Below the pieces are notes generated by a model that was not told the origin of the DNA, made no database searches, and saw only the letters and a program-made list of their open reading frames with translations. Both the position numbers and the translations under genes were made by a program. Below are positions 1 through 19,563 of a DNA stretch of 47,627 nucleotides, in pieces (positions within the stretch are counted from its first letter, which is position 1; each line of letters begins with the position of its first letter). The DNA is from Verrucomicrobiota bacterium (lineage in GTDB: Bacteria; Verrucomicrobiota; Verrucomicrobiia; Chthoniobacterales; UBA10450): positions 1-47,627 of the forward strand of contig QHQA01000009.1 of assembly GCA_003219695.1 (NCBI GenBank). The letters run 5' to 3'.

Positions 1-1
1 A

Positions 2-394
2 TTCGTCTCAGGCAACTACGCCTACATCGCTGAGGGCGCGGGAACGACCAACGCATTCCAAATCTTCGACGTGTCCAACCCGTCGGCCCCGGTTTTGGCA
101 GGCCAGGCCGACCTTGCCCACGCGGGCAGCATTGACACGGGCGGCGGCGACGCTATCTGGGTCAGGCACGGCTTCGCTTACATAGTGGAGGGCGCGGGAA
201 CGACCAAAGCGTTCGAGATATTCGACGTCTCGAACCCGGCCACTCCTTCGCGCGTAAGCCAGAGCCCGCTTGCCAACAGCGGCCAGCCGGACGACATCTT
301 CGTCTCGGGCAACTACGCTTACATCGTTGAAGGCGGCGGCACCACGAACGCTTTCGAGATATTCGACATCTCAAGGGTTCGCGCCGCCCGATAA
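2..394 (+). CDS. LVIVD-repeat protein, 3' fragment
   Basis: The frame is open from the window edge, so the true start lies upstream. The visible ~130 residues hold three repeats of about 45-50 residues, each with a core like GNYAYIVEGGGTTNAFEIFD followed by a turn such as VSNPATP. This is the LVIVD beta-propeller repeat, common in large exported proteins of environmental bacteria and often used as a binding scaffold. The protein stops with the short tail SRVRAAR just after the last repeat, so no C-terminal sorting domain is seen. The ligand cannot be told. The repeat assignment is fairly sure; the role is unknown. Confidence 0.75.
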   Translation, partial: FVSGNYAYIAEGAGTTNAFQIFDVSNPSAPVLAGQADLAHAGSIDTGGGDAIWVRHGFAYIVEGAGTTKAFEIFDVSNPATPSRVSQSPLANSGQPDDIFVSGNYAYIVEGGGTTNAFEIFDISRVRAAR

Positions 395-592
395 TCTCTA
401 ATCTAAAGTCTGCTAAAACAAAAATTCCGCCCAAATGCCGAAAACGTACGGCGCAATAGGTACATCTGATCACAAAATGCGTCATTTTTTAGATTTCAGC
501 CAGCCGCCGTATCCGGGGTACACAAAATCTACATCAAGAAACACGTTCATGGATCGAAGATTTCTCAATCTGCCCGGGCCTCACATTTATAT

Positions 593-687
593 GACATATA
601 GTTTTTTACCGAAATCTTGACCCGGAATAAGGCTTTGACGTGCTGCAGTGTTTCCGGCAAACTGCCTCTGTGGAGGCATAGATTCGG
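593..687. repeat. Intergenic element, copy 1
   Basis: It begins with gacatatagttttttaccga, the motif that also opens the copies at 1572, 1775, 2407 and 3138. Its second half (ccggaataaggct...ggcatagattcgg) matches 1611-1683, so copies 1 and 2 share a longer unit. It ends directly before the start codon at 689. The stretch 395-592 upstream holds nothing I can recognise. Confidence 0.6.
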
Positions 688-688
688 C

Positions 689-1546
689 ATGAAACCAAGA
701 AGCGCCGTTATTTTTGCAATCGTGGCTTTTGCGACCTGTGGTGACCGCGCGCCAGCCCAGTTTTCCGGCTGTGCATATATCACACTGTTCAATCCCTGCC
801 CAGTCAACATCGAAGCACAAGGAGATTGCGAACCCATCATCGATCGACAAGAAGCGTGCAAGGGCTGCGAACCGGGTGCAGCAGCCTGGTGGGTCGTGAA
901 CGATCGCAGAGATGGAGAAGTCAAGGTCACCATTCGCGTCACTCTCGGGGATGCCGTACTGGGCACCAGCACATTCACGGACCAGATGCTCACCCTTGCA
1001 GCCGGCGAGCGACGAAAGCTCGGATGTTCTCTCCCCACGGGGCAGACGCGATACACATGGAGTGTTGAAGACTGTCAGCCACGATCAGCACAGGCCTACG
1101 CAGAGAAGCAACTGACTCCTACCGAGAAGAAGTTCGCCGACGCCCAAGACGCCTTTTTCGATCATATAGGAAAGGTTTGGTACGAGAACATGGAATCACA
1201 CTATCGCCAGCTTGTTCCGGGTACTGCTCGCGTTCAATTGAGCATTTCGCCGGAAGGGGAACTGGTGAACACCCGCGTTTTATCGAACACCTCTAACGAA
1301 TTGGCAGCGCAGCTCATCATCGATGCAATCCGACCCGCCATACGCTTGTTGGCGACTGGTAAATCGTCCGAAATATCGGCCGAAATCACGGCGTTCGCTG
1401 GCGAAGGATCTGACTTGGATCCTCGGGATAAGCGTCCATCGGCCATGATCAGGGTGTCTCAGGGAGGGCTAGGCTATCCATATGAGTCGAGCGCTTCTTT
1501 CAGTGTCCATGATGCCTCGAAACTCAACCGGTTCGGTCCCAAATGA
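689..1546 (+). CDS. Exported protein with TonB C-terminal-like domain
   Basis: The ATG at 689 is chosen because it opens a signal peptide (MKPRSAVIFAIVAFATC, cleavage near APAQ); the in-frame codons upstream belong to the repeat. The mature part is rich in cysteine (about eight between residues 17 and 75) and has a beta-rich middle. Around residues 180-225 the pattern VQLSISPEGELVNTRVLSNT...IIDAIRPA is that of the C-terminal domain of TonB-family proteins, in which a strand carries the 'SxxGxV' turn. There is no N-terminal anchor or proline-rich spacer as in a real TonB, so it is probably a periplasmic protein that reuses this fold. No partner genes are nearby. Confidence 0.55.
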   Translation: MKPRSAVIFAIVAFATCGDRAPAQFSGCAYITLFNPCPVNIEAQGDCEPIIDRQEACKGCEPGAAAWWVVNDRRDGEVKVTIRVTLGDAVLGTSTFTDQMLTLAAGERRKLGCSLPTGQTRYTWSVEDCQPRSAQAYAEKQLTPTEKKFADAQDAFFDHIGKVWYENMESHYRQLVPGTARVQLSISPEGELVNTRVLSNTSNELAAQLIIDAIRPAIRLLATGKSSEISAEITAFAGEGSDLDPRDKRPSAMIRVSQGGLGYPYESSASFSVHDASKLNRFGPK

Positions 1547-1571
1547 GCGTAACGGCATAAACACGATTTTT

Positions 1572-1683
1572 TCTGACCTCGTTTTTTGCGGAATTTTTAT
1601 GGCGGGCGGACCCCGGAATCGCGGTTGACTCCTGCAGTATTTCCCCGGCAAAACTACCTCTGTGTAGGCCGCATAGATTACGG
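1572..1683. repeat. Intergenic element, copy 2
   Basis: It opens with tctgacctcgttttttgcgg and continues with ccccggaatcgcggttgact and tgtaggccgcatagattacg, which parallel copy 1. The gttaggc heptamer follows at 1701-1707. Confidence 0.55.
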
Positions 1684-1774
1684 GTTGCAGTCTAATTGTA
1701 GTTAGGCCTGACATCGTGTCATGAACTGGACAGCCTGGGCCTTAACCAATCGGATTAAGCCAACGCCAACTTTA

Positions 1775-1939
1775 TCTGACATATAGTTTTTACGGAATTT
1801 TGGGCAGAGGATTTTGGCCGGTTTACACTTGAGATTGCGTCATTCCGTTTTTATCGGAGCGTTCCGAGGTGAGGGAGCGAATTAGACGGAATAATTCCGT
1901 AAGACATTACTGGAAAATTTCATCCATTTCTCGTTAGGC
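1775..1939. repeat. Intergenic element, copy 3 (about 165 bp, ends in ctcgttaggc)
   Basis: It aligns over its whole length with 3138-3304: same opening motif, same central imperfect palindrome (attccgttttt...cgttcc gaggtgag ggagcg...agacggaat) and same end ctcgttaggc. The next gene starts 30 bases later. The size, imperfect palindrome and GTTRRRY end recall an integron attC site, but the matching RYYYAAC box at the left end is not found. Confidence 0.6.
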
Positions 1940-1968
1940 GTCATGCCTGCCGCGGAAAACTTCAAGTT

Positions 1969-2385
1969 ATGCTATCGAGCATCAATACTATCGCAGATGT
2001 TGAAACACTCTACGCACGTTTAGGCGAACGCGACTACGAAGCAGTGATGTCGTATTTGGCTGACGACATTGTCTGGATCGTGGCTGACAATTCGCCGTTG
2101 GCGGACCGCAGCCCTTATAACGGGATAGGTGAGGTGCGCTCAGGCGTTTTCGAACGCCTAACGGCGGGTTTCGACAAACTCGTCTTTGACGCGGACGAAA
2201 TCTTTGAGTGCAACGGCGGCGAAAAAGTCGTGGCTCTCGGCTACTATTACTTCAGGTTTCACGGGCAAGCTGAAGAACGCAAAGCACAGGTCGCCCACGT
2301 GTGGACCATCCGCGACGGTCGGGCCGTTAAGTTCCAGCAATACCTCGATACGCTCCGGGTCGCAAGAGACGCGGGAGCGCTCTAA
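1969..2385 (+). CDS. SnoaL-like / NTF2-fold protein
   Basis: This 138-residue protein has the usual length and pattern of the SnoaL-like polyketide cyclase/ketosteroid isomerase-like family: an N-terminal helix with YARLGERDYEAVMSYLADD, then DIVWIV, a central segment ending in FDKLVFDADEIF, and a closing strand HVWTIRDGRAVKFQQYLDT. The fold is a small cone-shaped alpha+beta barrel that binds hydrophobic ligands; many members are not characterised as enzymes. It stands alone between two intergenic elements and is cassette-like in size and setting. The family call is good; the substrate is unknown. Confidence 0.8.
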   Translation: MLSSINTIADVETLYARLGERDYEAVMSYLADDIVWIVADNSPLADRSPYNGIGEVRSGVFERLTAGFDKLVFDADEIFECNGGEKVVALGYYYFRFHGQAEERKAQVAHVWTIRDGRAVKFQQYLDTLRVARDAGAL

Positions 2386-2406
2386 GGCTCCGGGCACTCG
2401 ATTTTG

Positions 2407-2446
2407 TCTGACATATAATATTTTTCGGAAATTTTTTCTCGGGCCG
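2407..2446. repeat. Intergenic element, partial copy 4
   Basis: Only the opening part is clear (tctgacatataatatttttc, then ggaaattttttctcgggcc). It lies 21 bases after the stop codon of the SnoaL-like gene. The rest, up to 2487, does not align well with the longer copies. Confidence 0.5.
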
Positions 2447-2487
2447 GGGGGTCTTTGCTGAGCGTTTTTGGCGCGGCTGATCTTAGT

Positions 2488-3108
2488 TCATGTGCCAACG
2501 GGTTTAATAAATTTATTTTGTATTTTCTGCAGGCTGTTATCGATCTTGTCGCGTTCCATTCGTAGTCGAAGGGATTCAAGTCTGGAATTCCAGAGAAAGA
2601 ACAATCTTAGGAGATTATCGAAGCTGCCACTTCGAAGTAGCATTATTTCGGGTAGGTAACGTTGCACATTGCTGCAATAACTGGCTCCTAGTGCTGAAAA
2701 AGCGAGTTTTTCGTCCGCAACTCCGGAAACAAAAAAAACCGCGAAGGCTTCGATTGCGTTAAATGCCGCCAAGAATTCATAGGCAATGGTTTTTAGCGCA
2801 TCAACGTCAGCTGGTGTTGCGGTCGAAGTCACCTTCACTTGGTCGCCTTTAACTTCGACTTCGGATTTATCAAAGAAAGCGATGTGCTTTGTTTGGATAG
2901 CCTCGTAAAGGGCATTTTGCAGTGGGATAATGTTGTGCATGTAATGGGCACATTGATCGGCAGCCAGTTTCAAAGAATCGCGTTTGGCGCCTATACGCGC
3001 GATTTCCTTGGCCACAGTCAATTGTCGTAGCCCGATCGCGGCTATTACCGTCAAAGCAATTCCGGAAAGAAAGAAGAGGGATTCTAAAACGAAATGAAGG
3101 GAGCTCAT
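2488..3108 (-). CDS. Membrane-anchored protein of unknown function
   Basis: The ATG at 3108 is preferred (MSSLHFVLESLFFLSG); the earlier ATG at 3144 lies in the flanking intergenic element. One N-terminal membrane helix (about residues 5-27) is followed by a largely helical soluble part of about 175 residues with charged and leucine-rich stretches, probably cytoplasmic. The layout resembles small membrane-tethered helical proteins such as the DUF4760 type, but I cannot assign a family. It is the only gene on the minus strand in this cassette-like region and runs opposite to its neighbours. Confidence 0.5.
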   Translation of the reverse strand: MSSLHFVLESLFFLSGIALTVIAAIGLRQLTVAKEIARIGAKRDSLKLAADQCAHYMHNIIPLQNALYEAIQTKHIAFFDKSEVEVKGDQVKVTSTATPADVDALKTIAYEFLAAFNAIEAFAVFFVSGVADEKLAFSALGASYCSNVQRYLPEIMLLRSGSFDNLLRLFFLWNSRLESLRLRMERDKIDNSLQKIQNKFIKPVGT

Positions 3109-3137
3109 TCTTCCACTATGAATCCGACATGTTCGAT

Positions 3138-3304
3138 AGGACATACAGTTTTTTACGGAATTTTTTGGGTGCGGATCTTGTCCAGCATTAGGCCGGAAGT
3201 TGCGTGATTACGCTTTTATCGGACCGTTCGCCGGTGAGGGGGCGAATTAAACGGAATAATCCCGTAGAAAACTGCGGCAAAATTCCATTTATAACTCGTT
3301 AGGC
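3138..3304. repeat. Intergenic element, copy 5 (about 167 bp, ends in ctcgttaggc)
   Basis: This is the full-length partner of copy 3. Its centre contains ttcgcc ggtgag ggggcgaa, a short hairpin that differs in sequence from copy 3 but keeps base pairing, which suggests that structure is maintained. It ends with gttaggc at 3298-3304, 14 bases before the ATG of the next gene. Confidence 0.6.
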
Positions 3305-3317
3305 AGCCTATCGAATT

Positions 3318-3824
3318 ATGGCTCACGACATCGAAGAAACCAGGATCGCGTTGCTTCGAGAAGAACTTAAGTTGGTCAATACCTTGGAGAACTGGGGCGC
3401 AACACTGTTCCTCGGCGCAATAGCGCTTGTTTCGAAACAGCTCGTCGACTGGCAAAGACCACTAGAAGGCGGCAGGTCGGTTAGCCTGAACGAAGTCATT
3501 TTTCTTCTGCCAGCAGTTTTCGGTCTTTTCGCATTCATATTTCTTCGCGTCGTGAACTTCAGGATTCGAGATGTCAGACGCCAACTTTTCGAACTAACTC
3601 AACTAACGCGTCGGCGCAGATTTTCATTTGGGACGCTGGGCTGGTTGATGGCGTTAATGCCCGCGGGCCTCGGTTACATCGCCTCATGGTATTTTTCACT
3701 AGACCATGTGCCCATCCTTAGCAGTTTTCGGATTTTCGTCTGGGTCGGCCTGATTGTTTTTGGCGGTGCCGTTGCCGTTTTTGCACTCTTCAGCCAAGAC
3801 CGACAGCTGTTGACGAGGAATTAG
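3318..3824 (+). CDS. Four-helix membrane protein, unknown function
   Basis: This 168-residue protein begins with a charged amphipathic stretch (ETRIALLREELKLVN). Four likely membrane segments follow: about residues 27-43, 58-80, 105-123 and 136-160. A basic loop, RIRDVRRQLFELTQLTRRRR, lies between the second and third. No catalytic motif is visible. The gene begins 14 bases after the gttaggc end of an intergenic element. The fold family is not recognised. Confidence 0.55.
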   Translation: MAHDIEETRIALLREELKLVNTLENWGATLFLGAIALVSKQLVDWQRPLEGGRSVSLNEVIFLLPAVFGLFAFIFLRVVNFRIRDVRRQLFELTQLTRRRRFSFGTLGWLMALMPAGLGYIASWYFSLDHVPILSSFRIFVWVGLIVFGGAVAVFALFSQDRQLLTRN

Positions 3825-4111
3825 AGCAGGCGAGGGGCGCACAGTGATTCCAGTTGAGGTGTGGAGCTTTAGCCGTAGCTCCCAGAATTTTGAGCGTCCA
3901 GAGCGCCCCGCATCCTCCCAAGAGGTAGGCTAAGAACTTGTTCCCCCCGAACTGCCCAGGGGTTCTGGGGACGCGGCACGAGCGTACCCAGCTGTTGTCC
4001 CAGAGTTTGGAAAATGTCCGTGCCTTGAATGCCGCGTTTAGCACCGAAAAACGATCAGTTTCTGCCTTTTAGATAGTGTGCGCAACGTGTGTAAAAAGTA
4101 TAAATAAATAC
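3825..4111. other. Gene-free stretch
   Basis: I see no gene. The minus-strand frame across 3790-4044 has no recognisable pattern. The last ~60 bases before 4147 become clearly AT-rich compared with the surroundings. Confidence 0.4.
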
Positions 4112-4140
4112 TTGACAGATAGTGATTTATGTGATATTTT
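4112..4140 (+). promoter_or_regulatory. Sigma-70-like promoter before the HUH gene
   Basis: A perfect -35 box TTGACA (4112-4117) is followed after 17 bases by TATTTT (4135-4140), a 4/6 match to the -10 consensus. The ATG at 4147 lies 7 bases further on, so a transcript from here would be nearly leaderless. No Shine-Dalgarno sequence is visible. Confidence 0.45.
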
Positions 4141-4146
4141 GGTAAA

Positions 4147-4764
4147 ATGGGAAATGATGATCTAGTATCGTCCGAAAGAACGACGAAATTCTATGCGGAA
4201 TCGGCGACGGAATGGCAGCTCAAGCTAATCGTTTGGGAATTCTTCTGCACGCTGACTTGGACTTCCCGGGCGCGTAGTTGTGGGCGCAAACGGCAGACTC
4301 ATGTGACGCGTTGGCTGCGTTATTGGGCGCGGACGGTCCGGCCGGGGGTTGCAGATCCGCTGGGCCATCTGGCCTTTGTGGTTCGGTGGGAACGGGGCGA
4401 GATCGGCGGGTTGCCACACTGCCACATTTTGATTTCACGATTTCCGGAGCGATCGATCAATCCAAGTACGTGCTTCGCGATGAAGAACACGTGGAAGCAC
4501 GGGATCGCACAGGTTCGTCTGTATGATCCTTACGCGCCGGGCGACGTGATTAGATATCTTTCGAAGGGGCGTTTCTCGTCAGCGGCAGATTGCGAGGGCG
4601 CCAACACATACGAGCTGCGCAAGTTCAATCGGGCGGACTGGCTTTACATCAGTCCAGGCGCCTGGGCGGAGATGCGACACGCTCGAACGGTGGCCATGAG
4701 AATGCTGCCGCTTTCGCTCGCTCTTGCTCAAGTCAGTCCAGAATTTCCTGCACAACGTCAGTGA
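4147..4764 (+). CDS. HUH-type (Rep-like) single-strand endonuclease
   Basis: Three motifs of rolling-circle Rep proteins appear in order: a motif I-like hydrophobic strand FFCTLTW (residues 32-38), the metal-binding HUH motif LPHCHIL with H91 and H93, and a motif III YxxK in RYLSKG with Y137 as likely nucleophile and K140. Such Y1 HUH enzymes nick one strand and form a 5'-phosphotyrosine link; they serve plasmid, phage or transposon replication. The C-terminal residues from about 185 are translated from sequence that in another frame encodes a sigma factor, so the protein probably ends in foreign sequence. The stop lies 40 bases inside the next candidate frame. The HUH call is moderately sure; the type of element is not known. 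Confidence 0.6.
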   Translation: MGNDDLVSSERTTKFYAESATEWQLKLIVWEFFCTLTWTSRARSCGRKRQTHVTRWLRYWARTVRPGVADPLGHLAFVVRWERGEIGGLPHCHILISRFPERSINPSTCFAMKNTWKHGIAQVRLYDPYAPGDVIRYLSKGRFSSAADCEGANTYELRKFNRADWLYISPGAWAEMRHARTVAMRMLPLSLALAQVSPEFPAQRQ

Positions 4765-5206
4765 CACCAAGCAAACGGTGAAGCGGGGCGGCGCCGTTGA
4801 ATTCGTTTCGTGGGATGCGTGGATGGCAGAAGCGCCTACACAGATTTCGGTTTCGCCTCGTGCGCTCGCCTCGCTTGCACCCGAGCGGCTCTTTGATCTT
4901 CGCTGGGCCGCGACAGTCGTAGAGCAAGCTCTCCGGCGATTGCGTGAGGAATGCGAAGGCAAAGGACGTCTTCGGCTTTTTGAAGGACTGCGCGATTATC
5001 TCGCGGCAGAACACGCCGATATCTCGTATGCGAGGCTGGCCGCCGCATTAGGGGTTGCAGAGACAGTGGTGAAAAAACAACTGCATAATTTGCGCGAGCG
5101 TTATCGATGGCTCTTGCGCGATGAAGTCGCTCACACGGTCGCGAATCCGGCCGACGTGGATGACGAGATCCGCCATTTGTGCGCGGCATTGGCCGCAACA
5201 GCTTGA
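4700..5206 (+). pseudogene. Truncated ECF-like sigma factor (region 4 kept, region 2 lost)
   Basis: Similarity to the intact sigma factor at 34163-34921 begins abruptly at 4700, where the frame reads E-C-C-RFRS against E-K-G-RFRS, and continues through the conserved KRGG (4780-4790 area) to the end. The helix-turn-helix of region 4 (YARLAAALGVAETVVKKQL) and the tail VDDEIRHL are kept. An in-frame stop at 4697-4699 and the HUH gene lie directly upstream, so the first ~85 residues, including region 2 for core RNA polymerase and the -10 element, are missing. The first possible start is TTG at 4724. The last codon overlaps the kinase ATG (TGATG). It may still be translated as a DNA-binding fragment. 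Confidence 0.7.
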
Positions 5207-8091
5207 TGAACAAAGCAGCCGACGCTTCTGATTTCGCCATAGAAGGAAACGAGAATCTGCCGAAATGCCCACGATGCGGCGCGACAACTCGACTTGACCA
5301 CGGCACATGCATCAACTGTTTCCTGCGCGAGGGACTTGAAGTAAAAGGGGAGGGGTCGCGTGAAGCGTTCGAGAGTGTCCTCGTAGAAGACGACGTGACC
5401 GATACCGAGTGGCGCCTCGGTCACTACGAAATTCTGGAAGAAATCGGCCGCGGCGGTATGGGAGTCATTTATCGCGCGCGCCAGCAGCACTCTCGTCGGA
5501 TCGTCGCAGTCAAGCGCATCCTCGCTCATCAGGTGAACTCGCATGAGTCACTCGTGCGCTTTCGCCGCGAAGCCGAAGCGGTGGCTAGTCTCGATCATCC
5601 AAACATTCTTCCCATTCACGAGGTAAGTGAAAGCGAAGAAGGATTGCCGTATTTCAGCATGAAATACGCGACAGGCGGAAGCCTTCGTGCTGCAGCACCG
5701 GCGCTCCGTACTAAACCGCGCGAGTGTGTGCGGGTGATGGCCAAGGTGGCGCGCGCCATTGCCTACGCCCATAGCAAGGGAGTAATCCATCGCGATCTTC
5801 AGCCGGGAAACATCCTGCTTGATGAAAACGGAGAGCCGATGGTGAGCGACTTTGGTCTGGCAAAATGGCTCGATCAAACTAGCAACCTAACAAGAACTTT
5901 AGAAACACTCGGAACACCCGGCTACATCGCACCCGAGCAGGCTGAGTGCCGGGCAACCCATCTTACGGGGCCTGCTGACATTTACAGTCTTGGCGCGATT
6001 CTGTTTTACCTCATCACTGGCAGACCTCCCTTCGTAGGTCCGAATGTTCTTCATGTTATTCATCAAGCCGCTGCAACTCCGGCGCCGTGGTTGCGTTCAC
6101 TTGTGCCGTCACTCGACCGCGATTTGGAAACAATCGTCGCGCGTTGTCTGGAGAGCGATCCCAAAGCGCGCTATCAATCCGCCGGGACACTAGCCGAGGA
6201 TCTTGAACATTGGCTGCGGCACGAGCCGATTCAGGCCCGGCACGTTGGAATTCTCACTCGCGGACGAAAATGGGTGCGACGTAACTCAACTTCGACGGTG
6301 CTGGTAGCATCGCTAATCGCACTTGGAGCGGCGGTGGCCGTGATGTTTTCGGAGAGAGGATCACTGCGCCAGTTGCCGATCAGTACTGCGCTCATTCCTG
6401 ACAAGAGCATTGCCGTCCTTCCGTTTGAGAATCTGAGCGCCGATCCTGAAAATGCATTTTTCGCTGACGGTGTGCAGGACGAAATCTTGAACGGCCTGGC
6501 GAAAATTGCTGATTTAAAGACCATCAGCCGAACACCGGTAACGCAATACAAAGCCGGTGCGAAGCGAAACCTGCGTCAGATTGCGAATGAACTCGGTGTC
6601 GCCCATGTGGTCGAGGGGACGGTGCAACGCGACGCAAATCGCGTCCGAGTCAGCGCGAAGCTGATTGACGCAAGAACAAACAGGGATTTGTGGCAAGAGC
6701 GTTATGATCAGCCGCTTGATAACGTCTTTGCAATTCAGAGTGAGATTGCTCAGGCAATTGCGGCTCAGCTTCAAGCCAGGCTGTCTCCAAAAGAGAACGC
6801 GGCGATCGAGGAGCGCCCGACGCCTGATCTAGCTGCATACGATCTCTACTTAAAAGCGAAAGAGCTCCAGTACAACGCTCGCTTTAATCCCGGTCGCCGA
6901 GAAAGAGGATTATTTAGAGCGGTACAGCTTCTTGACGAAGCGGTAGCACGCGATCCTGCGTTTCTACTCGCTCACTGTCTTCTGGCCTTCGCGAACGATC
7001 AAATATATTTCGATGAATACGATCACACTGAAACTCGCCGGGCATTAGCCGAGAGCAGTGTAGAAGCTGCGGTTCGTCTTCAGCCTGATTCGGGGGAGAC
7101 ACATCTCGCGCAGGCAAATCACTTTTTTTGGGGTTATTTGGATTTTCCTCGGGCGCGCGAGCATTTGGCCAAGGCTCAAGGCGAACTTCCTAACAATGCA
7201 GAAGTCTTTCGGACTTTCGGCCAAATGAATCGGTGGGAGGGACACTGGGAGGAAGCCAGGCAAAATCTTGAACGTGCAGCGGAGCTCGATCCTCGGAATA
7301 CGAGAACGCTCACCGATCTTGGGTGGGTCTATTCGGCCTTACGCAAATACGAAGAAGCAGATACGGTAGCCGCTCGGCTGCAATCGCTGGAGCCGCGCAG
7401 CCCTATCGTGCGAACCGGTCGAGCATGGATTGGGCTCGAAGCGCGGGCGGACATGGCGTCTTTGCGTGCCGTCCTAAATACGATTGAAGCAGAAGGCTGG
7501 CCTTCAGCAACCGCAGTGTCTGATCTCTCCTTCCGACTCGCTCTTTATGAGCGCAACTCCGCCGCAGCGGCTCGTGCTCTGGCTAACATGCCCCGCGAAG
7601 GAAAAATCGATATGGACGGCATCCCATTCCCGTATGCCTGGTATGAGGGGTTATTGGCGAAGCTGCGAGAAGACGCGGCTGCCGCGCATTCCGCTTTTAC
7701 CGCCGCGCGCGCTGAAACTGAGAAACTCGTCCACGCTCAACCGGAAAATGTACGACCGCTAGACGTGCTAGCACTTATTGATGCCCAGTTAGGAGACAAA
7801 GAGAAAGCTATCCGCGAAGGGCGTACCGCGTGTGACATGCTTCCTCCTACAAAGAATGCCCTCGTTGGCCTTTGGCTAATGACTAACCTTGCACGCATCT
7901 ATGCGCTAACTGGCGAGCATGATCTCGCGCTGGAGCAGTTGGAGGTGCTGAGCAAACTTCCATCCGCCTGGTTCGGACTATCATATGGTGACCTGCGTCT
8001 AAATGCCGAATGGGATCGGCTGCGCAGCGACCCGCGTTTTGAAAAACTCTTGGAGGAGGCGAAGAAACCAGTTGCTTTGAAGACACTGTAG
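5206..8091 (+). CDS. Membrane Ser/Thr protein kinase with TPR sensor region
   Basis: The ATG at 5206 overlaps the stop of the sigma remnant (TGATG), which indicates coupling. Domains in order (961 residues): a zinc-ribbon-like cluster C21/C24/C35/C38; a Hanks-type kinase with glycine loop GRGGMG (81-86), K103 in AVKRI, the catalytic loop starting H195-R-D, D215 in DFG, and GTPGYIAPEQ; one membrane helix (about 364-383); a FlgO/TolB-like domain starting SIAVLPFENLS (about 400-530); then TPR repeats to the end. Oddly, the catalytic loop reads HRDLQPGN, with Gln199 in place of the usual Lys, while the paralogue at 34924 keeps Lys. The kinase probably acts on proteins in response to an envelope signal. 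Activity is uncertain because of Q199. Confidence 0.88.
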   Translation: MNKAADASDFAIEGNENLPKCPRCGATTRLDHGTCINCFLREGLEVKGEGSREAFESVLVEDDVTDTEWRLGHYEILEEIGRGGMGVIYRARQQHSRRIVAVKRILAHQVNSHESLVRFRREAEAVASLDHPNILPIHEVSESEEGLPYFSMKYATGGSLRAAAPALRTKPRECVRVMAKVARAIAYAHSKGVIHRDLQPGNILLDENGEPMVSDFGLAKWLDQTSNLTRTLETLGTPGYIAPEQAECRATHLTGPADIYSLGAILFYLITGRPPFVGPNVLHVIHQAAATPAPWLRSLVPSLDRDLETIVARCLESDPKARYQSAGTLAEDLEHWLRHEPIQARHVGILTRGRKWVRRNSTSTVLVASLIALGAAVAVMFSERGSLRQLPISTALIPDKSIAVLPFENLSADPENAFFADGVQDEILNGLAKIADLKTISRTPVTQYKAGAKRNLRQIANELGVAHVVEGTVQRDANRVRVSAKLIDARTNRDLWQERYDQPLDNVFAIQSEIAQAIAAQLQARLSPKENAAIEERPTPDLAAYDLYLKAKELQYNARFNPGRRERGLFRAVQLLDEAVARDPAFLLAHCLLAFANDQIYFDEYDHTETRRALAESSVEAAVRLQPDSGETHLAQANHFFWGYLDFPRAREHLAKAQGELPNNAEVFRTFGQMNRWEGHWEEARQNLERAAELDPRNTRTLTDLGWVYSALRKYEEADTVAARLQSLEPRSPIVRTGRAWIGLEARADMASLRAVLNTIEAEGWPSATAVSDLSFRLALYERNSAAAARALANMPREGKIDMDGIPFPYAWYEGLLAKLREDAAAAHSAFTAARAETEKLVHAQPENVRPLDVLALIDAQLGDKEKAIREGRTACDMLPPTKNALVGLWLMTNLARIYALTGEHDLALEQLEVLSKLPSAWFGLSYGDLRLNAEWDRLRSDPRFEKLLEEAKKPVALKTL

Positions 8092-8120
8092 GTCAACCGC
8101 TCCGGTTGCCGAAGGAAACC

Positions 8121-8139
8121 GGCAGGCGATGCGCCTGCC
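8121..8139. terminator. Hairpin between convergent genes
   Basis: The sequence ggcaggcgatgcgcctgcc forms an 8-bp stem and is followed on the plus strand by ctacaattttt. It lies between the kinase stop (8091) and the stop of the convergent nucleotidyltransferase gene (8140), so it may terminate the kinase transcript. Confidence 0.45.
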
Positions 8140-8865
8140 CTACAATTTTTGTGCGTTTAGCCGCGCCAACACTTCCGGGTCGCGGACGTCTGCCCATTCG
8201 CCGGTGAGCTCGAGCGCTTTCACCTTTTTCCCTGACTGTGCGAGGTCGCGAATGGCATCCGTGAGCTCGTATTCGCCGCGCGGGGACGGTTTCAGTTTCG
8301 CGGTGAATTCAAAAATGCTCGGACAAAATGCGTAAATGCCAGCGTTATACCATGGGCTTTCGATCACTGCGGGCCGCGATTTTTCGCGGATATCGACGAG
8401 TTCCATTTGCTCATTCAAGAAAACCGCGCCGCCTTTGCTTACGTCTTCACCCCGCGTCACCGTGACGATTGCTTCAACGTTGTCCGGAAGATCGGCAACG
8501 CGTTTGTAATTCGTCGGATCGATCAAGATGTCGCCGTAACTTAGGACGAAGGGAGAATTGCCGACGAAATCGCGGGCTAGATCGACAACGCGACCGGTGC
8601 CGTCCTGCACTGTCTGCGTTGCATATTGGATATCGATGTTATAGCGGGACCCATTGGCGAAAAAATTCTGCACAGCGTCGGCGTGGTAACCAACGATGAT
8701 CAGGAATTTGCGTATTCCCGCCTCATGCAGTCCCTCCACAATGTGCTGCAAAACCGGCTTGCCGCGCACCTCGATCATCGGTTTGGGAAGCTCACTGGTG
8801 AGCTCGCGCATGCGCGTGCCACGTCCGGCTGCGAGTACGACAGCCTTTTCGATCTGCGTTGTCAT
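8140..8865 (-). CDS. Sugar-phosphate nucleotidyltransferase
   Basis: The protein of about 241 residues has the signature of NDP-sugar pyrophosphorylases: AVVLAAGRGTRM near the start (nucleotide-binding loop), then LPKPMIEVRGKPVLQHIVE, the SYGDILID segment in the place of the metal-binding Asp, and GGAVFLNE and WYNAGIYAF later. It joins a sugar 1-phosphate to an NTP, giving an activated sugar for surface polysaccharide. Sugar and base cannot be told from sequence. It lacks the C-terminal left-handed helix seen in GlmU. The ATG at 8865 lies in the arm of an inverted-repeat element, so the 11 codons upstream (MSRDVSASLD) are repeat sequence. No Shine-Dalgarno is seen. Confidence 0.85.
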   Translation of the reverse strand: MTTQIEKAVVLAAGRGTRMRELTSELPKPMIEVRGKPVLQHIVEGLHEAGIRKFLIIVGYHADAVQNFFANGSRYNIDIQYATQTVQDGTGRVVDLARDFVGNSPFVLSYGDILIDPTNYKRVADLPDNVEAIVTVTRGEDVSKGGAVFLNEQMELVDIREKSRPAVIESPWYNAGIYAFCPSIFEFTAKLKPSPRGEYELTDAIRDLAQSGKKVKALELTGEWADVRDPEVLARLNAQKL

Positions 8866-8964
8866 GTCGAGTGAAGCCGAGACATCTCTAGACATTTCTA
8901 AGCATCGTTAGCGCTGGAAAAGCAGAAACACTAAGAGATTCCTCCACTCCGGTCGGAATGGCAG
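8861..8964. repeat. Paired inverted-repeat element, copy A
   Basis: One arm is gtcatgtcgagtgaagccga followed by gacatctct; the other is aagagattcctccactccgg followed by tcggaatggcaga. A unique ~50-bp spacer separates them. The same arms recur at 18705, 29321, 33147 and 37771. The first arm contains the start codon (read on the minus strand) of the nucleotidyltransferase gene. Confidence 0.75.
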
Positions 8965-8969
8965 AAATG

Positions 8970-9011
8970 TTCGCGGCAAGCTGCCGCGAACTACCCCGAA
9001 AGCTTTCGGGG
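8970..9011. terminator. Two adjacent perfect palindromes
   Basis: ttcgcggcaagctgccgcgaa (8970-8990; first and last 9 bases pair) is followed by ccccgaaagctttcgggg (8994-9011). They lie downstream of the stop codon of the minus-strand BNR gene (9037) and could end its transcript, although no T-run follows on that strand. Confidence 0.35.
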
Positions 9012-9036
9012 TGCTCCCGAGAATCACTGGTCATGA

Positions 9037-12000
9037 TTAGGTCTTCTTCGGCTGCGTGATAATCAGCGCCGGCAAATTGGCTTGCTTGATCAAATCGCTC
9101 ACCTTCGGCAAGTCTTCGTTCTTAAGCTGGGTCCATTTTTTTAACTGCTCGTCGAGCTGGGTGCTCAGCATTTGAAACACGTCGAGTTGCGGTGTGGTCG
9201 GCTCCTTGTCGCTGTACTCAATGACGTGGCTAAACGTATCAAAGCGCTCGTTCAACATGTCGGGGAACGCGAGGTTCGCTTCCGAGCCTTTCATGTTTAC
9301 CTGAATGAGCTTCTGCTCGACTTCGGATATTTTGTGCTCGAGATCGTCGGCCGCCGAGAGTGCCGGTTTCAAACGCTGATCGTCGCCGAAACGTTTGTGC
9401 AGGTTTTGGATTTGTGAGCGCAAATCGCGGATTTCATTGACGGCTTGATGCAACTGCGAAATGCGGTCGGTCACCTGCATCGTGAGGGTCAATTGTTTTT
9501 GTAACCCCGCTTCCTGTCCCTTTGTCCGCGGATCGATCGCCAAGTGCAGCGGGGCAGTCTGCGATTTGCTGCCAACGGTTAGTTTCACCTGGTAATCTCC
9601 AGGTGGCGCAAGTGGGCCTTTTGGGCCACTCCCGGAATAAAACGCGCCCGGGATTTGAATCGGATCATCGTAGCGCAGGTCCCATGCAAACCGGTTCATC
9701 CCTTCGTTGGCTGGAATTGTTTTCGCGCGTTCGACGCGGTCCGGCCATTCGGGCGGTTGCTCGCCTTCTTTCTTTTCCTTGCTGGAAAGATGTCGGACAA
9801 CTTTGCCCGAAGCATCGAGGATCTCCAGCGAGACCTCCTCTTTCGGCGCGGTCTTGAAATAATAATCAATGATTGCGCCCTACGGTGGATTATCGCCCAC
9901 TGGCTGGCGTTTATCGACCTCCTCCGGGTAATGCAACCGCAACGCGGTTTGAGGTTGATATAGGATGACGTCCGGCTGCACGGATTGCGCGTTCACCTGA
10001 CGCAGCGGCGTCACGTCGTCGAGTATCCAGAATGAACGCCCATGCGTCGCTACGACCAGATCGTCATCCTTCACCACCAGATCGTGGATCGGCGATTGCG
10101 GCAGATTCAACTGCAACGGCTGCCAGTGCGCGCCGTCATCGAACGAAACGAAGACACCGAGCTCCGTTCCTGCATAGAGCAGACCTTTGCGCTTGGGGTC
10201 TTCGCGCACCGCATGCACGTACGCGCCATCGGGAATTCCGCGGACGATCGCGGTCCAGCTTTTCCCGAGATCAGTCGTCTTAAAAATGTACGGCTTAAAG
10301 TCATCGAGTTTGTGCCGATCCACGGCCACATAGGCGGTGTTGCCATCGTGCGGCGAAGGATCGATGAGATCGACAGTGCTCCACTCCGGCATTTTCGGCG
10401 TGACGTTCGACCAATGCTGGCCGTCGTCAGTTGTAAGCTGCACCAGTCCGTCGTCCGTGCCTGCCCACAGCGTTCCCTGTTTTACCAGTGATTCCGCGAG
10501 CGCGAAGACCGTGTCGTAATATTCGACTGACGTGATGTCCTTGGTAAGCGGACCTCCGCTTGGCTGCTGCTTCGACTTATCGTTGCGCGTCAAATCACCG
10601 CTGATCTGCGTCCAGCTCTGTCCGTGATCGGTTGATTTGAAAACGCTCTCGCCCGCAGTGTAGATCACATCGGGATTATGCGGCGAAAGCATCAGCGGCG
10701 TGACCCATTGAAACCGATGCACAAGATCGGCGGCGCCGTGTCCTGAGTTATCAAGAGGCCAGACACTAACGTCCTGCCGTTCCCCTTTACTTTTATCGTA
10801 GCGAGTAATCTCGGCTTCGTTGTTTGAATAAATGATGTGCCAGTCGCGCGGATCAGGCACCACGAAGCCGCATTCGCCGCCGGCGGCCTCGAACCAATCC
10901 TGCCGCCCGATCGCGCCCCAGTCGGCGCGGCTGGCTATGCCAACGTTGGAGTTGTCCTGTTGCGCGCCATAAATGTGGTAGGGAAACGCATTGTCTACGG
11001 CCACGTGGTAAAACTGTGCCGTGGGCTGATTGTTTTGCGTGGTCCAACTCTTGCCGCCGTCAGTAGTGATGCTGGCGCCGCCGTCATTCACATTGGCGAT
11101 GCGATTTGGGTTCGTCGGATCAATCCACAGCCCGTGATGATCGCCGTGACGCGCGGGCAAGAGATTGAAAGTTTTTCCGCCATCGACCGACCGAAAGAGC
11201 CCGGTGTTCACAAGGTACACGGTGTCCGGTGATTTCGGATCAGCATAAACCTTGCTGAAATACCAGGCGCGCTGCCGAAAGCGGCCGTCGTCATTCACGC
11301 GGGTCCAATGCTGTCCCGCATCATCGGACCGGTAGAGACCGCCTTCCTTTGCCTCAATGATTGCATAGACGCGATTGGAATCGGCTCCGGAAACGGCGAT
11401 GCCGATCCTGCCGAGAATGCCTTCGGGAAGCCCGTTTCCCTCGAGATGTTTCCAAGTCACGCCGTTGTCTTCCGAACGGTAAAGCCCGCTGCCCGGGCCG
11501 CCGCTTGAAAAAAACCAAGGCTGCCGCCGCGCCTGCCAAAGTGATGCGAACACGATGTTGGGATTATGCGGATCGAAAACGACGTCGATCCCACCAGTGT
11601 TCTCATCTTTCCATAAAACTTTCGTCCACGTTTTCCCGCCGTCGGTTGTGCGAAAAATCCCGCGTTCCTGATTCGAACCGAACGCATGACCCAACGCCGC
11701 AACGAGAACGACGTTCTCATTCCTTGGATCAACGATCAGCGCGCCGATCTGATGGGTATCTTTCAAACCAACATTTTCCCATGTCTTTCCGCCGTCCACC
11801 GATTTGAAGACTCCGGTGCCGTAAGTGGTATTGCCGCGGATCGCTGCTTCGCCCGTGCCTGCGTAAATGACGTTGTGGTCCGATGGGGCAACCGCAATGG
11901 CGCCAATCGAGGAAATCGGTTCTTTATCAAAAAGCGGCATCCAGTTCGCGCCGCCATCAATCGTTTTCCAAACTCCGCCCGCGACCGCACCGAAATAATA

Positions 12001-12222
12001 CGAGTCCGGTTCGCCGACGACACCTTCGATCGCCAGCGCGCGGCCGCCCTGGAACGGTCCGATCTGTCGCCATTGCATGCCCTTGAACAATTTTTCATCG
12101 ATTGTGCCCGGTGGCGTTGGGGTGGGGGATGGAGCAGGTCGAAGAGAAGCTGGGAAAAGAAATACAGACATCGCGAAAATGATGCGAACCAGTCTGATAA
12201 AAGGACAATTCGGCGTGATCAT
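9037..12222 (-). pseudogene. BNR/sortilin-like repeat exported protein with in-frame amber codon
   Basis: The frame is open over 1,061 codons except for one TAG at 9880-9882. Before it are 780 residues: a signal peptide (hydrophobic stretch from about residue 10) and many BNR/Asp-box repeats (SVDGGKTW, STDHGQSW, TTDLGKSW), the pattern of VPS10/sortilin- and xyloglucanase-like beta-propellers. After the TAG the frame continues with GAIIDYYFKTAPKEEVSLEI and then a C-terminal part with MNRFAWDLRYDDP, PPGDYQVKLTV and a long helical region. That is the usual C-terminal half of these secreted proteins, so the two halves are one gene. A single AAG-to-TAG change, a base-call error or readthrough could explain it. 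If translation stops, the product lacks its last ~280 residues. Confidence 0.85.
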
Positions 12223-12329
12223 CCGCCTAAAGTGAAAAGTTTGCGGCTTCGTTCAACTGGATTTGCGCGAAATCGGCCACGGTAGGCGCGCTGCGCCGAA
12301 TCTCGAAGGCTTTTGCCCAGCCGCGTCTG

Positions 12330-13328
12330 CTAAGCGTTGATCGCAGCCATGCGCGGCGGAGGGGCTTCAAGCGCGCCCGCATCGGGCGGGCCACCACCAA
12401 AGCGACGTGCGGCGTAATATGAGCCGATCACCAGTACTGCGGCAATAAGCTGCGCAACGAGCGTTTCGACCGTTGGAAAAACCGCAAACCAGAGACCCAT
12501 CCACGGTGGCAGGTAATTTTTCAGAGAATTGATTTCAGTTGTGGAAATCCAATGCGCCAGCTGCATTTCCTGCGCTTGCTCCCCAACCATGACGAGCAAC
12601 ACCACTCCCAAAAGAATACCGGTGGTGATTAACATTTTGCGGTACGGCAGCCGCTGCTGGAGAACAAAGGTCAGCACGGCCACCATTGCTGTCAGCACGA
12701 TTCCCAGCAGCGCCCCTTTCAGCACCACGCCGCCGCCGAGCCGCAGATGATAGCTCTGCAGAAAAAGGACAACTTCAAATCCTTCGCGGTACAACGAGGT
12801 AAATCCGAGCAGGACCAATCCAAACCAGAGACGCCACTGCGAAATCTCCGCGGCGCGCGCATTTTCCAGCAACGTTTTACGTCGGCGACTATGGGCGCGA
12901 ATCCAGCCGCCCCAATAAATTTTGTGGAAAAACCAATTCATGATCACCAGCAGAACGATCACGGCCAGCAGTCCGGTGGCGGCCTGAAGATCGAGCGCCG
13001 ACATATTGTCGCTGAGCGAACCGACAATTCCCACAGCGATAGACCACGTGATCAGGCTGGCGATAAATGCCAGGCCCGCGCCGAGCGCCACCGGGCGACG
13101 ATAGCCGCGTTTAGGGCCGGTCATGCTGGCCGTGATCGCAGCCAGCACAAGAATGCATTCTAATCCCTCGCGGAAAACAAGAACGCCGATGTCGAGCAGC
13201 GCAACGGTCGCGCTTGTATTGGGCTGGATCGGGTCAGGCGCGCCATGTGCGGTTAGCCCTTGCCATACAAGCACCGCGAGCACACAGAATACGCCTGCCA
13301 GAATGCCGATGCGCAAGGCGAGCTTCAT
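12330..13328 (-). CDS. FTR1-family iron permease
   Basis: The protein of 332 residues has about seven membrane helices and both REGxE motifs that define FTR1/EfeU permeases: REGLE at residues 53-57 and REGFE at 181-185. The glutamates bind iron during transport across the inner membrane. A short basic cytoplasmic loop (RAHSRRRKTLLE) lies in the middle. EfeO and EfeB partners are not adjacent, so this is a single-gene version. A TTAGGG-like ribosome site lies just upstream of the ATG. The C-terminal 20 residues are proline- and alanine-rich and variable. Confidence 0.88.
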   Translation of the reverse strand: MKLALRIGILAGVFCVLAVLVWQGLTAHGAPDPIQPNTSATVALLDIGVLVFREGLECILVLAAITASMTGPKRGYRRPVALGAGLAFIASLITWSIAVGIVGSLSDNMSALDLQAATGLLAVIVLLVIMNWFFHKIYWGGWIRAHSRRRKTLLENARAAEISQWRLWFGLVLLGFTSLYREGFEVVLFLQSYHLRLGGGVVLKGALLGIVLTAMVAVLTFVLQQRLPYRKMLITTGILLGVVLLVMVGEQAQEMQLAHWISTTEINSLKNYLPPWMGLWFAVFPTVETLVAQLIAAVLVIGSYYAARRFGGGPPDAGALEAPPPRMAAINA

Positions 13329-13464
13329 TTTGCCCTAAGAGCTTATCATAGAGACACGAGAAGTGCTGCTGATGGATTGCGTTTTTTTAGCGGCCGCTTG
13401 CGCGCGCGGACTCTTCAGCGAGCCGTTTGCCGCTTGTGTCTGATTGACTTACGATGGCCGCCGC

Positions 13465-14241
13465 ATGCCGGAATACGTTTTGGGTCATCATCTGAAAGGC
13501 GAGGGGACGCGCCTGGCGTTGATGTCGCAGTTGCTCGATCCCATGCATCGCCGGTACATCGACGCGCTGAATGTCGTTAGGCCGGGAGCGCAAACGCTTG
13601 AGGTCGGTTGCGGCAACGGATCGATCTCCGCATGGCTTGCTGAACGCGTGGACCCTGGCGGAAGAGCGGTCGCATTCGATCTGGATCTGTCCCTGATCAA
13701 AGTGCGCGCGCCAAATCTTGAACTGCGCCAGGGCGACATCGTTGCTGGTGCGGTCGAACCCGGCACCTTCGATTTAGTCACTGCGCGTGCGGTGCTCCAT
13801 CACGTTGCAGATGCCGAAGCCGCAATGCGAAATCTCGTCGCAAGCCTGCGACCGGGCGGCGCGCTTCTGCTGATTGAACCTGATTTCCTTCCAGTCAGCG
13901 TCGCTGAGCCGGCAGAAGTGCGAGCCTTCTGGGGTGGATGGGTTGCGTGGTCGCGTGAACGCGGAATCGATTATCACATCGGGCGCGCCCTTGCGCCCCG
14001 GCTTGCAGCGATCGGCCTAACTGAAATCGGTGGCGCAGCTGAAACGGCGATTTACAACGGCGCCTCGCCATGGGCTGATTACTGGACGCAGACGATCACC
14101 GAACTGCGCGATGGTCTGCTAAGTTCCGGCAAACTTAACAACGCGCTGGTGGACACATTTCGCGCCTGTTGCGCCGATTCCAATTGGTGGACTCAAACGA
14201 TTGCTTGCACCGCAGTGCACGGATGGAATCCCGGCGTGTAG
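13465..14241 (+). CDS. Class I SAM-dependent methyltransferase
   Basis: The ATG at 13465 (MPEYVLGHHLKGEG) is chosen over the upstream TTG. Motif I is LEVGCGNGSIS (about residues 46-56), the acidic end of strand beta-2 is FDLD, motif II/III follow as GTFDLVTARAVLHHV, and LRPGGALLLIEPDF is the post-III loop. These are typical of the UbiE/COQ5-like methyltransferase 11/25 group, 258 residues long. The substrate is unknown. It sits directly upstream of the T2SS genes but separated by 54 bases, and need not be linked to them. Confidence 0.85.
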   Translation: MPEYVLGHHLKGEGTRLALMSQLLDPMHRRYIDALNVVRPGAQTLEVGCGNGSISAWLAERVDPGGRAVAFDLDLSLIKVRAPNLELRQGDIVAGAVEPGTFDLVTARAVLHHVADAEAAMRNLVASLRPGGALLLIEPDFLPVSVAEPAEVRAFWGGWVAWSRERGIDYHIGRALAPRLAAIGLTEIGGAAETAIYNGASPWADYWTQTITELRDGLLSSGKLNNALVDTFRACCADSNWWTQTIACTAVHGWNPGV

Positions 14242-14295
14242 AGTTTTAACTCCCGGCGTCGGTTGTGATTTTGCGTCGATCGAGTAACTTCGACG

Positions 14296-14769
14296 GTGCA
14301 ACGTTTCCGGGCCTTTACTTTAATCGAGATTGCCCTGGCCATTTTCATACTGATGCTGCTGCTGCTGTTGGCGGTGCCCAGCTTGACCGGCGTGTTCGCA
14401 AGCAGGCGGCTGAAGCAATCCCTGGACGGGTTTAACAGTCTCGTGCACCAGGCGCAGGAGCGAAGTGTGACGGAGCGCCGGGCATACCTGATCGCTTGGA
14501 GGAAGGATGGCGTGGTGCTGCTTCCGGAAGTTTTCGCAGAAGGTGAGGAAGCCAAACCGGTGGCGGAACTTCGCCTCAGCAAGGGAACAATGCTAAGGCT
14601 TTCCTTGCCGGCAGCCTTGACGGAAAAACATCCGTGGGAATGGATATTTTGGCCATCGGGAAACTGCGAACCGGCGATTGTCCAGTTCAAGGGCTCCGCT
14701 GGCCTATGGACCGCGAATTACTCGCCGCTGACAGCGCAGGCCGAGATTACCCAGTATGCAGCGAGGTGA
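14296..14769 (+). CDS. gspH: Type II secretion minor pseudopilin GspH-like
   Basis: A GTG start gives MQRFRA then FTLIEIALAIFILMLLLL, a prepilin N-terminus with Glu5 and a long hydrophobic helix. The residue before the cleavage point is Ala rather than the usual Gly, which prepilin peptidase can accept less well. The rest (157 residues in total) fits the GspH/FimT globular domain: SLTGVFASRRLKQSLDGF and HQAQERSVTERR. It is the first gene of the run gspH-I-J-K-L-M and would form part of the pseudopilus tip. The GspH name rests on order and on the N-terminal helix; the globular part is weakly conserved. Confidence 0.75.
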   Translation: MQRFRAFTLIEIALAIFILMLLLLLAVPSLTGVFASRRLKQSLDGFNSLVHQAQERSVTERRAYLIAWRKDGVVLLPEVFAEGEEAKPVAELRLSKGTMLRLSLPAALTEKHPWEWIFWPSGNCEPAIVQFKGSAGLWTANYSPLTAQAEITQYAAR

Positions 14770-14780
14770 ACGGCAACGGA

Positions 14781-14850
14781 GTTATGGAGCAATGGAGAGA
14801 TGGAGTAATGAAATTTTCAACACTCCAGCACTCCAGCACTCCAATACTCC
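14781..14850. repeat. Short imperfect inverted repeat between gspH and gspI
   Basis: The plus strand reads gttatggagcaatggagaga then gagtaatg, a 15-base gap, and cactccagcactccagcact followed by ccaatactcc. The ggag/ctcc-rich arms are imperfect complements, so the unit can fold as a hairpin. It supplies the sequence directly before the gspI start. Confidence 0.45.
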
Positions 14851-14854
14851 AATC

Positions 14855-15271
14855 ATGACTGCGACAAGGATTCGGACACCCGCAAGGCCGGTGTGCGGCT
14901 TTGCGTTGTACGAGGTGTTGCTTGGCGTGATGATCTTTGCAGTTGGCGTGATCGCACTGGGGCGCGCGGTCGAGAATTGTCTCAATGCGAGCACGATCAG
15001 CGCCGAAGAGAGCGTTGTGCGACAGATTTTATCCGATCGGATGGCGGTAATTCAAGCAGCGCCGGTAGTGCCGGATGCTGAGAAAGAGTTCAAGATCGAC
15101 AGCAGTTATGGCAAGATAACGTTGATCCAGACAAGCGCGCCAGCGGAATTGACCGAACCGGATAATACGCTGGTAAGCGGAATCAACCTGGTGACGTTGA
15201 CTGCTCGATGGCAGCACGGCGGCGCCCCGCAGTCGAAACAGATTCAGTTTTATGTTTATCGGTCCGGATAA
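14855..15271 (+). CDS. gspI: Type II secretion minor pseudopilin GspI
   Basis: The ATG at 14855 gives a 15-residue leader (MTATRIRTPARPVCG) followed by FALYEVLLGVMIFAVGVIAL: Gly at the cleavage point, Glu5 and the hydrophobic helix of a pseudopilin. The pattern FAVGVIALGRAVENC with later SAEESVVRQILSDRMAVIQA is typical of GspI (138 residues). GspI nucleates the tip complex with GspJ and GspK. Earlier in-frame codons would translate the preceding repeat and are not used. The 3' end overlaps gspJ by 20 bases. Confidence 0.75.
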   Translation: MTATRIRTPARPVCGFALYEVLLGVMIFAVGVIALGRAVENCLNASTISAEESVVRQILSDRMAVIQAAPVVPDAEKEFKIDSSYGKITLIQTSAPAELTEPDNTLVSGINLVTLTARWQHGGAPQSKQIQFYVYRSG

Positions 15272-15914
15272 GTGCGCACTTCAAATTCGAAATTCGAAAT
15301 TCGAAATTCGAAATTTTCGGGGTGCCTTCACATTGCTCGAGATCATGCTGGCAGTGGGGATTCTGGGAATGATGTCGCTTGCGATTTTTCGCTTTGTGCA
15401 ATCGAATATGACCGCGCTGCAGCTCTCAACGGATACAGCCGCAACGGAAGCGCAATACGAGGGATTGCGCGAACTGCTCACGGCGGAATGGCAAAGCTTG
15501 AGTCCATTCCGAGCCGCCATGACTGGCGAGCCAATCAAGTTAAATGACCGAGAGCGCGACGAGATAAAGTGGAGTTGCGGCGCGGGCCCCGGCCTTCTTA
15601 CACGCTATGCGCCGGGCGACTTTATCGTCAGGCTGCGGTTGCAGCCGGAAAAGGAAAATGGGGACCGACTGGATCTCGGTTTCTTGCGAAAGTCGAAGGA
15701 GGATTCCGACATTGGCGAAGGGCACGAGACATGGGTGCCATTGGTCAAGAACGTAGCGAGTCTCGAGATCCGTTATTTCAGCGCTCAGGCCAACACCTGG
15801 GTGGATAGCTGGCCAGGAGGTCAGTTGCCCGGGCTTATCAAAATCACCTTGGGACGTGCCGATGCAGCCGTGCCGTGGGAAGCAATTATTCCACTGAGAC
15901 GAACACCGTATTGA
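15252..15914 (+). CDS. gspJ: Type II secretion minor pseudopilin GspJ
   Basis: The prepilin motif is GA then FTLLEIMLAVGILGMMSLAIF, with Glu5 and with Ala at the cleavage point. The globular part (RYAPGDFIVRLRLQPEKENG, WVPLVKNVASLEIRYF) has the usual GspJ strand order. The leader is about 25 residues because it runs through a 7-bp tandem repeat (15283-15316) and reads NSKFEIRNF. The start ATG lies inside gspI. GspJ joins GspI and GspK at the pseudopilus tip. The exact start is uncertain. Confidence 0.75.
   Translation: MFIGPDKCALQIRNSKFEIRNFRGAFTLLEIMLAVGILGMMSLAIFRFVQSNMTALQLSTDTAATEAQYEGLRELLTAEWQSLSPFRAAMTGEPIKLNDRERDEIKWSCGAGPGLLTRYAPGDFIVRLRLQPEKENGDRLDLGFLRKSKEDSDIGEGHETWVPLVKNVASLEIRYFSAQANTWVDSWPGGQLPGLIKITLGRADAAVPWEAIIPLRRTPY
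15283..15316. repeat. Tandem 7-bp repeat (aattcga) in the gspJ leader
   Basis: Four and a half copies of aattcga are found in a row. They lie within the coding frame and encode part of the GspJ leader peptide, which is removed on maturation and so tolerates such insertions. Confidence 0.7.
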
Positions 15915-15917
15915 GCG

Positions 15918-16907: not shown

Positions 16908-16920
16908 TATCGAGCCCGGA

Positions 16921-18144: not shown

Positions 18145-18692
18145 TGCCGGCGTGGTACCAACGAATGAGCCGGCGTGAGCGCCTGCTCGCATGGATTGTG
18201 GCCGGAACCGCGTTCGCGCTAATCAATCTTTGGATGTTGAGCTGGATCTTCGGCGCGCTCGGCGCTGCGGAGAGGGACCTTGCGGCGCACAGGGGAACGA
18301 TGGCCGCGCAGTCTCTCTACGTGAAGGAGCGCGACACCTGGACAAAACGCGAAGAATGGATCCGGCAACATCAGCCCGTGCTCAAGGATCCTGCGGAAGC
18401 CTCCGCGCTGCTTGATCGCATCAAGGAAGTGGCCGGCAAGTACAACATTCTGGTCGAAAATCCCGCGATCGGGAGCGGCGAAACTACGCCGTACCATCAG
18501 ACTGTGTTCGCGTCCATTGAAACGAAAAGCCCGTGGCCGCCGCTGGTGCATTTCCTTTACGATGTGCAACGGCCGGAGGCGTTCATCGTGTTCGAAAATG
18601 TGAATCTCGCCATCGATGGCAGCGATCCCACAATGATGCGCGGCAAATTTAAAATCGCCCGCTGGTTTGCGCCGGCGCAAAAACCCAAGTAA
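18141..18692 (+). CDS. gspM: Type II secretion GspM-like protein
   Basis: The start overlaps the gspL stop as ATGA. An N-terminal membrane helix (about residues 18-40, LLAWIVAGTAFALINLWMLS) is followed by a coiled region and a periplasmic domain with HQPVLKDPAEASALLDRIKE and KSPWPPLVHFLYDVQRPEAF. This is the anchor/coil/ferredoxin-like layout of GspM or PilO. It would form a dimer with GspL at the inner membrane. Name from position and layout rather than strong motifs. Confidence 0.65.
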   Translation: MMPAWYQRMSRRERLLAWIVAGTAFALINLWMLSWIFGALGAAERDLAAHRGTMAAQSLYVKERDTWTKREEWIRQHQPVLKDPAEASALLDRIKEVAGKYNILVENPAIGSGETTPYHQTVFASIETKSPWPPLVHFLYDVQRPEAFIVFENVNLAIDGSDPTMMRGKFKIARWFAPAQKPK

Positions 18693-18704
18693 TAATACGG
18701 CACT

Positions 18705-18800
18705 GTCATGTTGAGCGAAGCGAAACATTTCTGGCCTATCGCCGTGCGCGACACAAATCTGAAATTGATCCGAGATTCTTCGCTCCGCTCAGAATGACAT
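18705..18800. repeat. Paired inverted-repeat element, copy B
   Basis: The arms gtcatgttgagcgaagcgaa and gattcttcgctccgctcaga-atgac flank a unique spacer. This copy lies between gspM and the gspC-like gene and ends 17 bases before the ATG of the latter. Confidence 0.7.
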
Positions 18801-18817
18801 CTGTGGAGGTCGCTCGT

Positions 18818-19462: not shown

Positions 19463-19563
19463 GCTGTAGCTGGTTCTTCCCTGGAGGGGCCGCGTAAATG
19501 CGGAACTCCGAACGTTGACAAAGTCCGTTTTCCAACGGCCTGCTACACGACCCCCCACAACGC

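Follow-up and report, generated by a model that had tools for sequence, protein, structure and literature searches.

A 10-bp microhomology joins an HUH endonuclease gene to a truncated ECF sigma factor gene in a verrucomicrobial draft genome

The described systems closest to the locus studied here are ECF-type sigma factor genes with an adjacent Ser/Thr kinase gene, the HUH Rep family PF23343, sedentary chromosomal integrons and, as regards the joint itself, chimeric contigs and microhomology-mediated rearrangements. Nothing specific was found in the literature on integrons in Verrucomicrobia or on sigma-kinase pairs. We analysed a stretch of 47,627 nucleotides (the window) from a Verrucomicrobiota draft genome (G000), in which the reading frame of an HUH endonuclease gene runs into the 3' two-thirds of an ECF-type sigma factor gene (Table 1). 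This junction is most likely not a new kind of regulator but either a wrong assembly join or a very recent chromosome break.

Table 1. Features at and around the junction. Positions refer to the window, those of orfX to the named loci.
Feature	Position	Strand	Remarks
Integron-cassette-like patchwork of small ORFs	1-3865		Repeats, attC left half
HUH promoter	4112-4140	+	TTGACA-17 bp-TATTTT; -35/-10 spacing same in G030 and G014
HUH endonuclease (Rep-type) gene	4147-4764	+	PF23343; native up to ~4716, read-through to TGA 4762-4764
Breakpoint, 10-bp microhomology GCCGCTTTCG	4707-4716	+	Common to HUH 3' end and sigma gene
3' two-thirds of ECF-type sigma gene	4709-5206	+	End of region 2, linker, region 4
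Ser/Thr kinase gene with TPR repeats, intact	5206-8091	+	Pfam Pkinase, E 2e-49; collinear with G029
orfX	L057 8578-8895; L133 6947-7219; L066 5571-5816; L156 2046-2280; L163 4112-4387		

The HUH ORF matched the Pfam profile PF23343 (REP_ORF2-G2P) with an E-value of 5.6e-8 and 33.4 bits against a gathering cut-off of 27.8, and residues H91, H93, Y137, and K140 of its product were invariant in the alignment of seven homologues. Its dN/dS of 0.15 relative to the homologue in G030 indicates that the gene is under purifying selection. The sequence-only reading had pointed to a promoter-like sequence upstream, which is borne out by the relatives: G030 and G014 keep the -35 hexamer, and G024 has the variant GTGACA. 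An AlphaFold model from the seven-sequence alignment (pLDDT 74) had its best Foldseek matches to AAV Rep (E 7.8e-3), and VIA gave Z-scores of 8.9 to SIRV1 ORF119 and ~8 to parvoviral Rep with unrelated folds just below; the predicted structure is compatible with a Rep fold, but not decisive. Homologues are present in eight of the 83 genomes of the family, several of which keep orfX as neighbour, and no relatives were found in phage, plasmid, and viral contig collections. Two identities were considered for the gene and rejected, namely an IS91/IS200-type transposon, given its single copy in G000 and the conserved neighbour orfX near lysC in several genomes, and an integron cassette, given that no attC sites flank the HUH unit and that orfX is a conserved non-cassette neighbour. 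Between G000 and G030, dS was 0.53 for the HUH gene and 1.1-1.2 for thrC and pdhE, which could reflect transfer or a foreign piece; this does not decide the matter, because between G000 and G029 thrC and pdhE exceed the sigma fragment in dS as well.

Window positions 3866-4716, i.e., the HUH gene and ~280 bp upstream of it, aligned to G030 with 79% nucleotide identity, and the alignment stops at 4716. The gene order in G030 is HUH-orfX-GAAREE-lysC-thrC, followed by the fused dehydrogenase gene pdhE, with orfX convergent to HUH and GAAREE being a small gene; the HUH homologue ends there two codons past the breakpoint position (CCGCTTTCGTCGTAA). In G014, where the HUH gene itself is gone, its promoter and orfX have kept their order; G024 has a truncated HUH gene upstream of a GAAREE-like gene, and two other genera (G110, G043) have HUH near orfX, with lysC and thrC further on at the same side. 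Based on this synteny, the HUH gene is an old inhabitant of the lysC locus. It had been proposed that the HUH gene replaced the 5' part of the sigma gene. Instead, two separate loci are joined at a microhomology and nothing indicates transposition; the HUH gene therefore would not have jumped into the sigma gene. The neighbour orfX encodes a protein of ~105 amino acids without Pfam match and lies beside HUH or an HUH remnant in several genera; the two genes form a conserved pair, and lysC is close by in most cases.

Further upstream, the left flank is made up of pieces with counterparts at scattered loci of other species in the genus (92-96% identity), against nucleotide identities of ~77-81% for the chromosomal genes that we compared. 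Repeats in this flank terminate with CTCGTTAGGC at 1933 and at 3298, and with GTTAGGC at 1701. The left half of an attC is located at 1739-1765; the full attC (~123 nt) was seen only in related arrays and not in the window. Intact integron integrases are encoded in ten of the 35 genomes of the genus, and G000 itself has a broken one on another contig (L106 on C217, 2584-3481 or, in a second delimitation, 2641-3487). Positions 1-3865 probably represent an integron cassette array. A copy of the window repeat at 1835-1898 is found ~1.4 kb from the broken integrase gene. An intergenic motif of ~165 nt, TGACATATAGTTTTTTACGGAATTTT...GACGGAATAATTCCGTAAG...CTCGTTAGGC, occupies 1774-1939 and 3136-3304, with further starts at 589, 1574, and 2406; it recurs in cassette regions of many members of the genus, sometimes after an attC left half, and is possibly an ORF-less cassette or an element inserted in attC. 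Positions 1969-2385 contain a SnoaL-like cassette gene (PF12680) with 92-94% nucleotide identity in several species of the genus, which suggests recent horizontal spread, because it is far closer between species than chromosomal genes. No Rfam matches were obtained for window positions 1-5300. Elsewhere in the window, 24061-24470 and 25329-25737 form a 410-bp direct repeat (98% identical, 1.27 kb apart).

Positions 4707-4716 join two chromosomal loci that are separate in the relatives examined. DNA of G029 is collinear with window positions 4704-19856, with collinearity stopping at 4704, and DNA of G009 with 4863 to ~21000. At the joint the HUH gene loses its native stop and gains ~16 out-of-frame codons; an in-frame HUH-sigma fusion protein is ruled out, as the two frames differ. 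The sigma frame is closed by a TGA at 4697-4699 and open from 4700 to the TGA at 5204-5206. The sequence-only reading had let the sigma gene begin at 4700 with ECCRFRS, which is right for the frame but not for the homology: sigma homology proper begins at 4707-4709, so that 'ECC' is HUH-derived. Sigma orthologues carry GCCGCTTYCG, or a sequence near it, at the decamer, and at least nine shared bases occurred in 5e-5 of simulated random joints between both parental sequences. Neither N nor an assembly scar was seen in the sequence of the joint. The same HUH-sigma junction was sought in related genomes, as had been suggested, and no related locus has it; nor was a sigma or kinase neighbour present in the stretches examined at the seven other HUH loci.

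The sigma fragment shares 84-88% amino acid identity with orthologues in three other species of the genus (G029, G015, G028), all of which keep a full-length sigma gene before orthologous kinase genes (250 amino acids in G029; open frames of 263 codons including pre-start sequence in G015 and G028). Compared with these, ~85 N-terminal residues are absent, confirming the loss of the 5' part; the claim that region 2 was lost is correct for regions 2.1-2.2 and part of 2.3, but the end of region 2 remains. The sigma-kinase operon in the window also lacks its promoter. In Pfam searches, region 2 gave a weak match below the cut-off in the intact G029 orthologue and none in the fragment, and region 4 of the fragment was likewise below the cut-off (E 0.12). 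Lacking the core-binding part of region 2, the remnant is presumably not a working sigma factor, whether the joint is real or a mis-join. The kinase gene is intact, as had been stated, and its start overlaps the sigma stop in a translationally coupled TGATG (5204-5208). Omega of the sigma gene was 0.11-0.14 on the window branch (upper bound ~0.29) versus 0.06-0.12 on the other branches, with overlapping intervals. By this measure the fragment shows no decay or relaxed selection, as expected if the break is not real or very recent; any real truncation would have to be very recent, since omega of the fragment does not differ from that of intact orthologues. On three other contigs of G000, sigma paralogues (L040 on C221, L053/L054 on C97, L041 on C89) are interrupted by stops in frame or by a frameshift, and an intact kinase motif is absent from the 1.5 kb retrieved downstream of them. 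Other draft contigs have runs of N inside sigma genes, which may be scaffold gaps or masked stretches.

Our leading explanation, to which we give about even chances, is an assembly mis-join or library chimera; a chimera at 4697-4710 had been named by the sequence-only reading as counting against its own view. The left locus is an integron-flanked HUH gene natively followed by orfX, GAAREE, lysC, and thrC, and the right locus a sigma-kinase operon deprived of its promoter and first ~85 sigma codons; two dead-end contigs would have been bridged over 10 identical bases, which we infer to be more likely than a chromosomal event. The G000 assembly is a draft of 224 contigs, among them C29 with pdhE-thrC, which breaks off in the first few codons of lysC. 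The remainder of lysC is absent from the assembly, and so are GAAREE and the sigma 5' half; for the latter, the best matches are paralogues at 58-60%. Both native continuations, HUH to orfX-lysC and the sigma 5' half, are thus missing, which fits the bridging of two dead-end contigs. Because pdhE, thrC, and the lysC start survive on C29, a deletion running simply from HUH into sigma is ruled out. Against a mis-join, it is rare for De Bruijn assemblers to make a join across no more than 10 bp, and living cells also produce joints at microhomologies. Whether the joint is real or a mis-join, the HUH protein would not have acted on the sigma gene.

A recent illegitimate recombination in vivo, i.e., an inversion or translocation at the 10-bp microhomology that split HUH from lysC and cut the sigma gene, is a serious though less probable alternative. 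It would leave a dead sigma remnant before an intact kinase gene, with the reciprocal joint in an unassembled gap, which is quite possible in a draft of this many contigs. The microhomology far above chance and the contiguous sequence without N agree with such an event, and sigma gene loss would not be unusual in G000, because other sigma paralogues carry stops or frameshifts (C221, C97). However, the reciprocal joint, orfX-lysC beside the sigma 5' half, is absent from the assembly, the lack of decay requires a very recent event, and the two loci share none of the contigs retrieved from relatives (up to 160 kb in G110 and 58 kb in G030).

It is very unlikely that the HUH protein moved its own gene into the sigma gene, or that array and HUH were taken there by one-ended transposition. 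The breakpoint is at the very 3' end of the HUH gene, enzymes of this type are able to cut and join single strands, and the 280-bp upstream segment is conserved; yet the gene is single-copy, its few homologues include several beside orfX, and the unit has no sigma sequence on its other side and no repeated termini. Slighter still is the chance that the fragment was recruited, under the HUH promoter and with the kinase, as a stand-alone DNA-binding protein, as had been suggested, or as an anti-sigma-like decoy. Its frame is open for 168 codons with low dN/dS, the kinase start is coupled, and the HUH promoter is real, but the candidate starts (TTG 4724, GTG 4778, ATG 4823) include no good start codon and none has a ribosome-binding site, and the low omega is inherited from intact ancestors. 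Recruitment is unlikely because there is no Shine-Dalgarno-supported start, related sigma frames are nearly all full length among those listed, and HUH-sigma neighbours are missing from the stretches examined at the seven other HUH loci. Least probable of all is a real joint at which the HUH protein, long kept beside lysC and integron-type arrays, promotes strand exchange near the 3' end of its own gene and fuses the array to new loci.

As a mis-join, the joint would warn against inferring gene fusions or replacements from draft bins of metagenomes; as a real joint, it would be no more than an ordinary gene break of very recent date. The finding of wider use is that a family of soil Verrucomicrobia has a single-copy HUH gene next to lysC and orfX, which in one genus adjoins integron-type cassettes.

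Compared with ECF-type sigma genes adjacent to Ser/Thr kinase genes, the locus has the same overlapping stop/start pair as G029 and as the paralogue at 34163-37695 of the window, but differs in lacking sigma regions 2.1-2.2 and the operon promoter. The HUH protein shares the HCH and Y..K motifs with family PF23343 and has a predicted structure compatible with its Rep-like fold, whereas its gene is a single-copy chromosomal one with the conserved neighbour orfX near lysC and no match in the phage or plasmid collections. The left flank resembles sedentary chromosomal integrons in its cassette-like small genes and attC-type ends, and an integrase is present in the genus, but the HUH gene itself is not bounded by attC sites. 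As in chimeric contigs and microhomology-mediated rearrangements, two unrelated loci are joined in the window at a short shared sequence.
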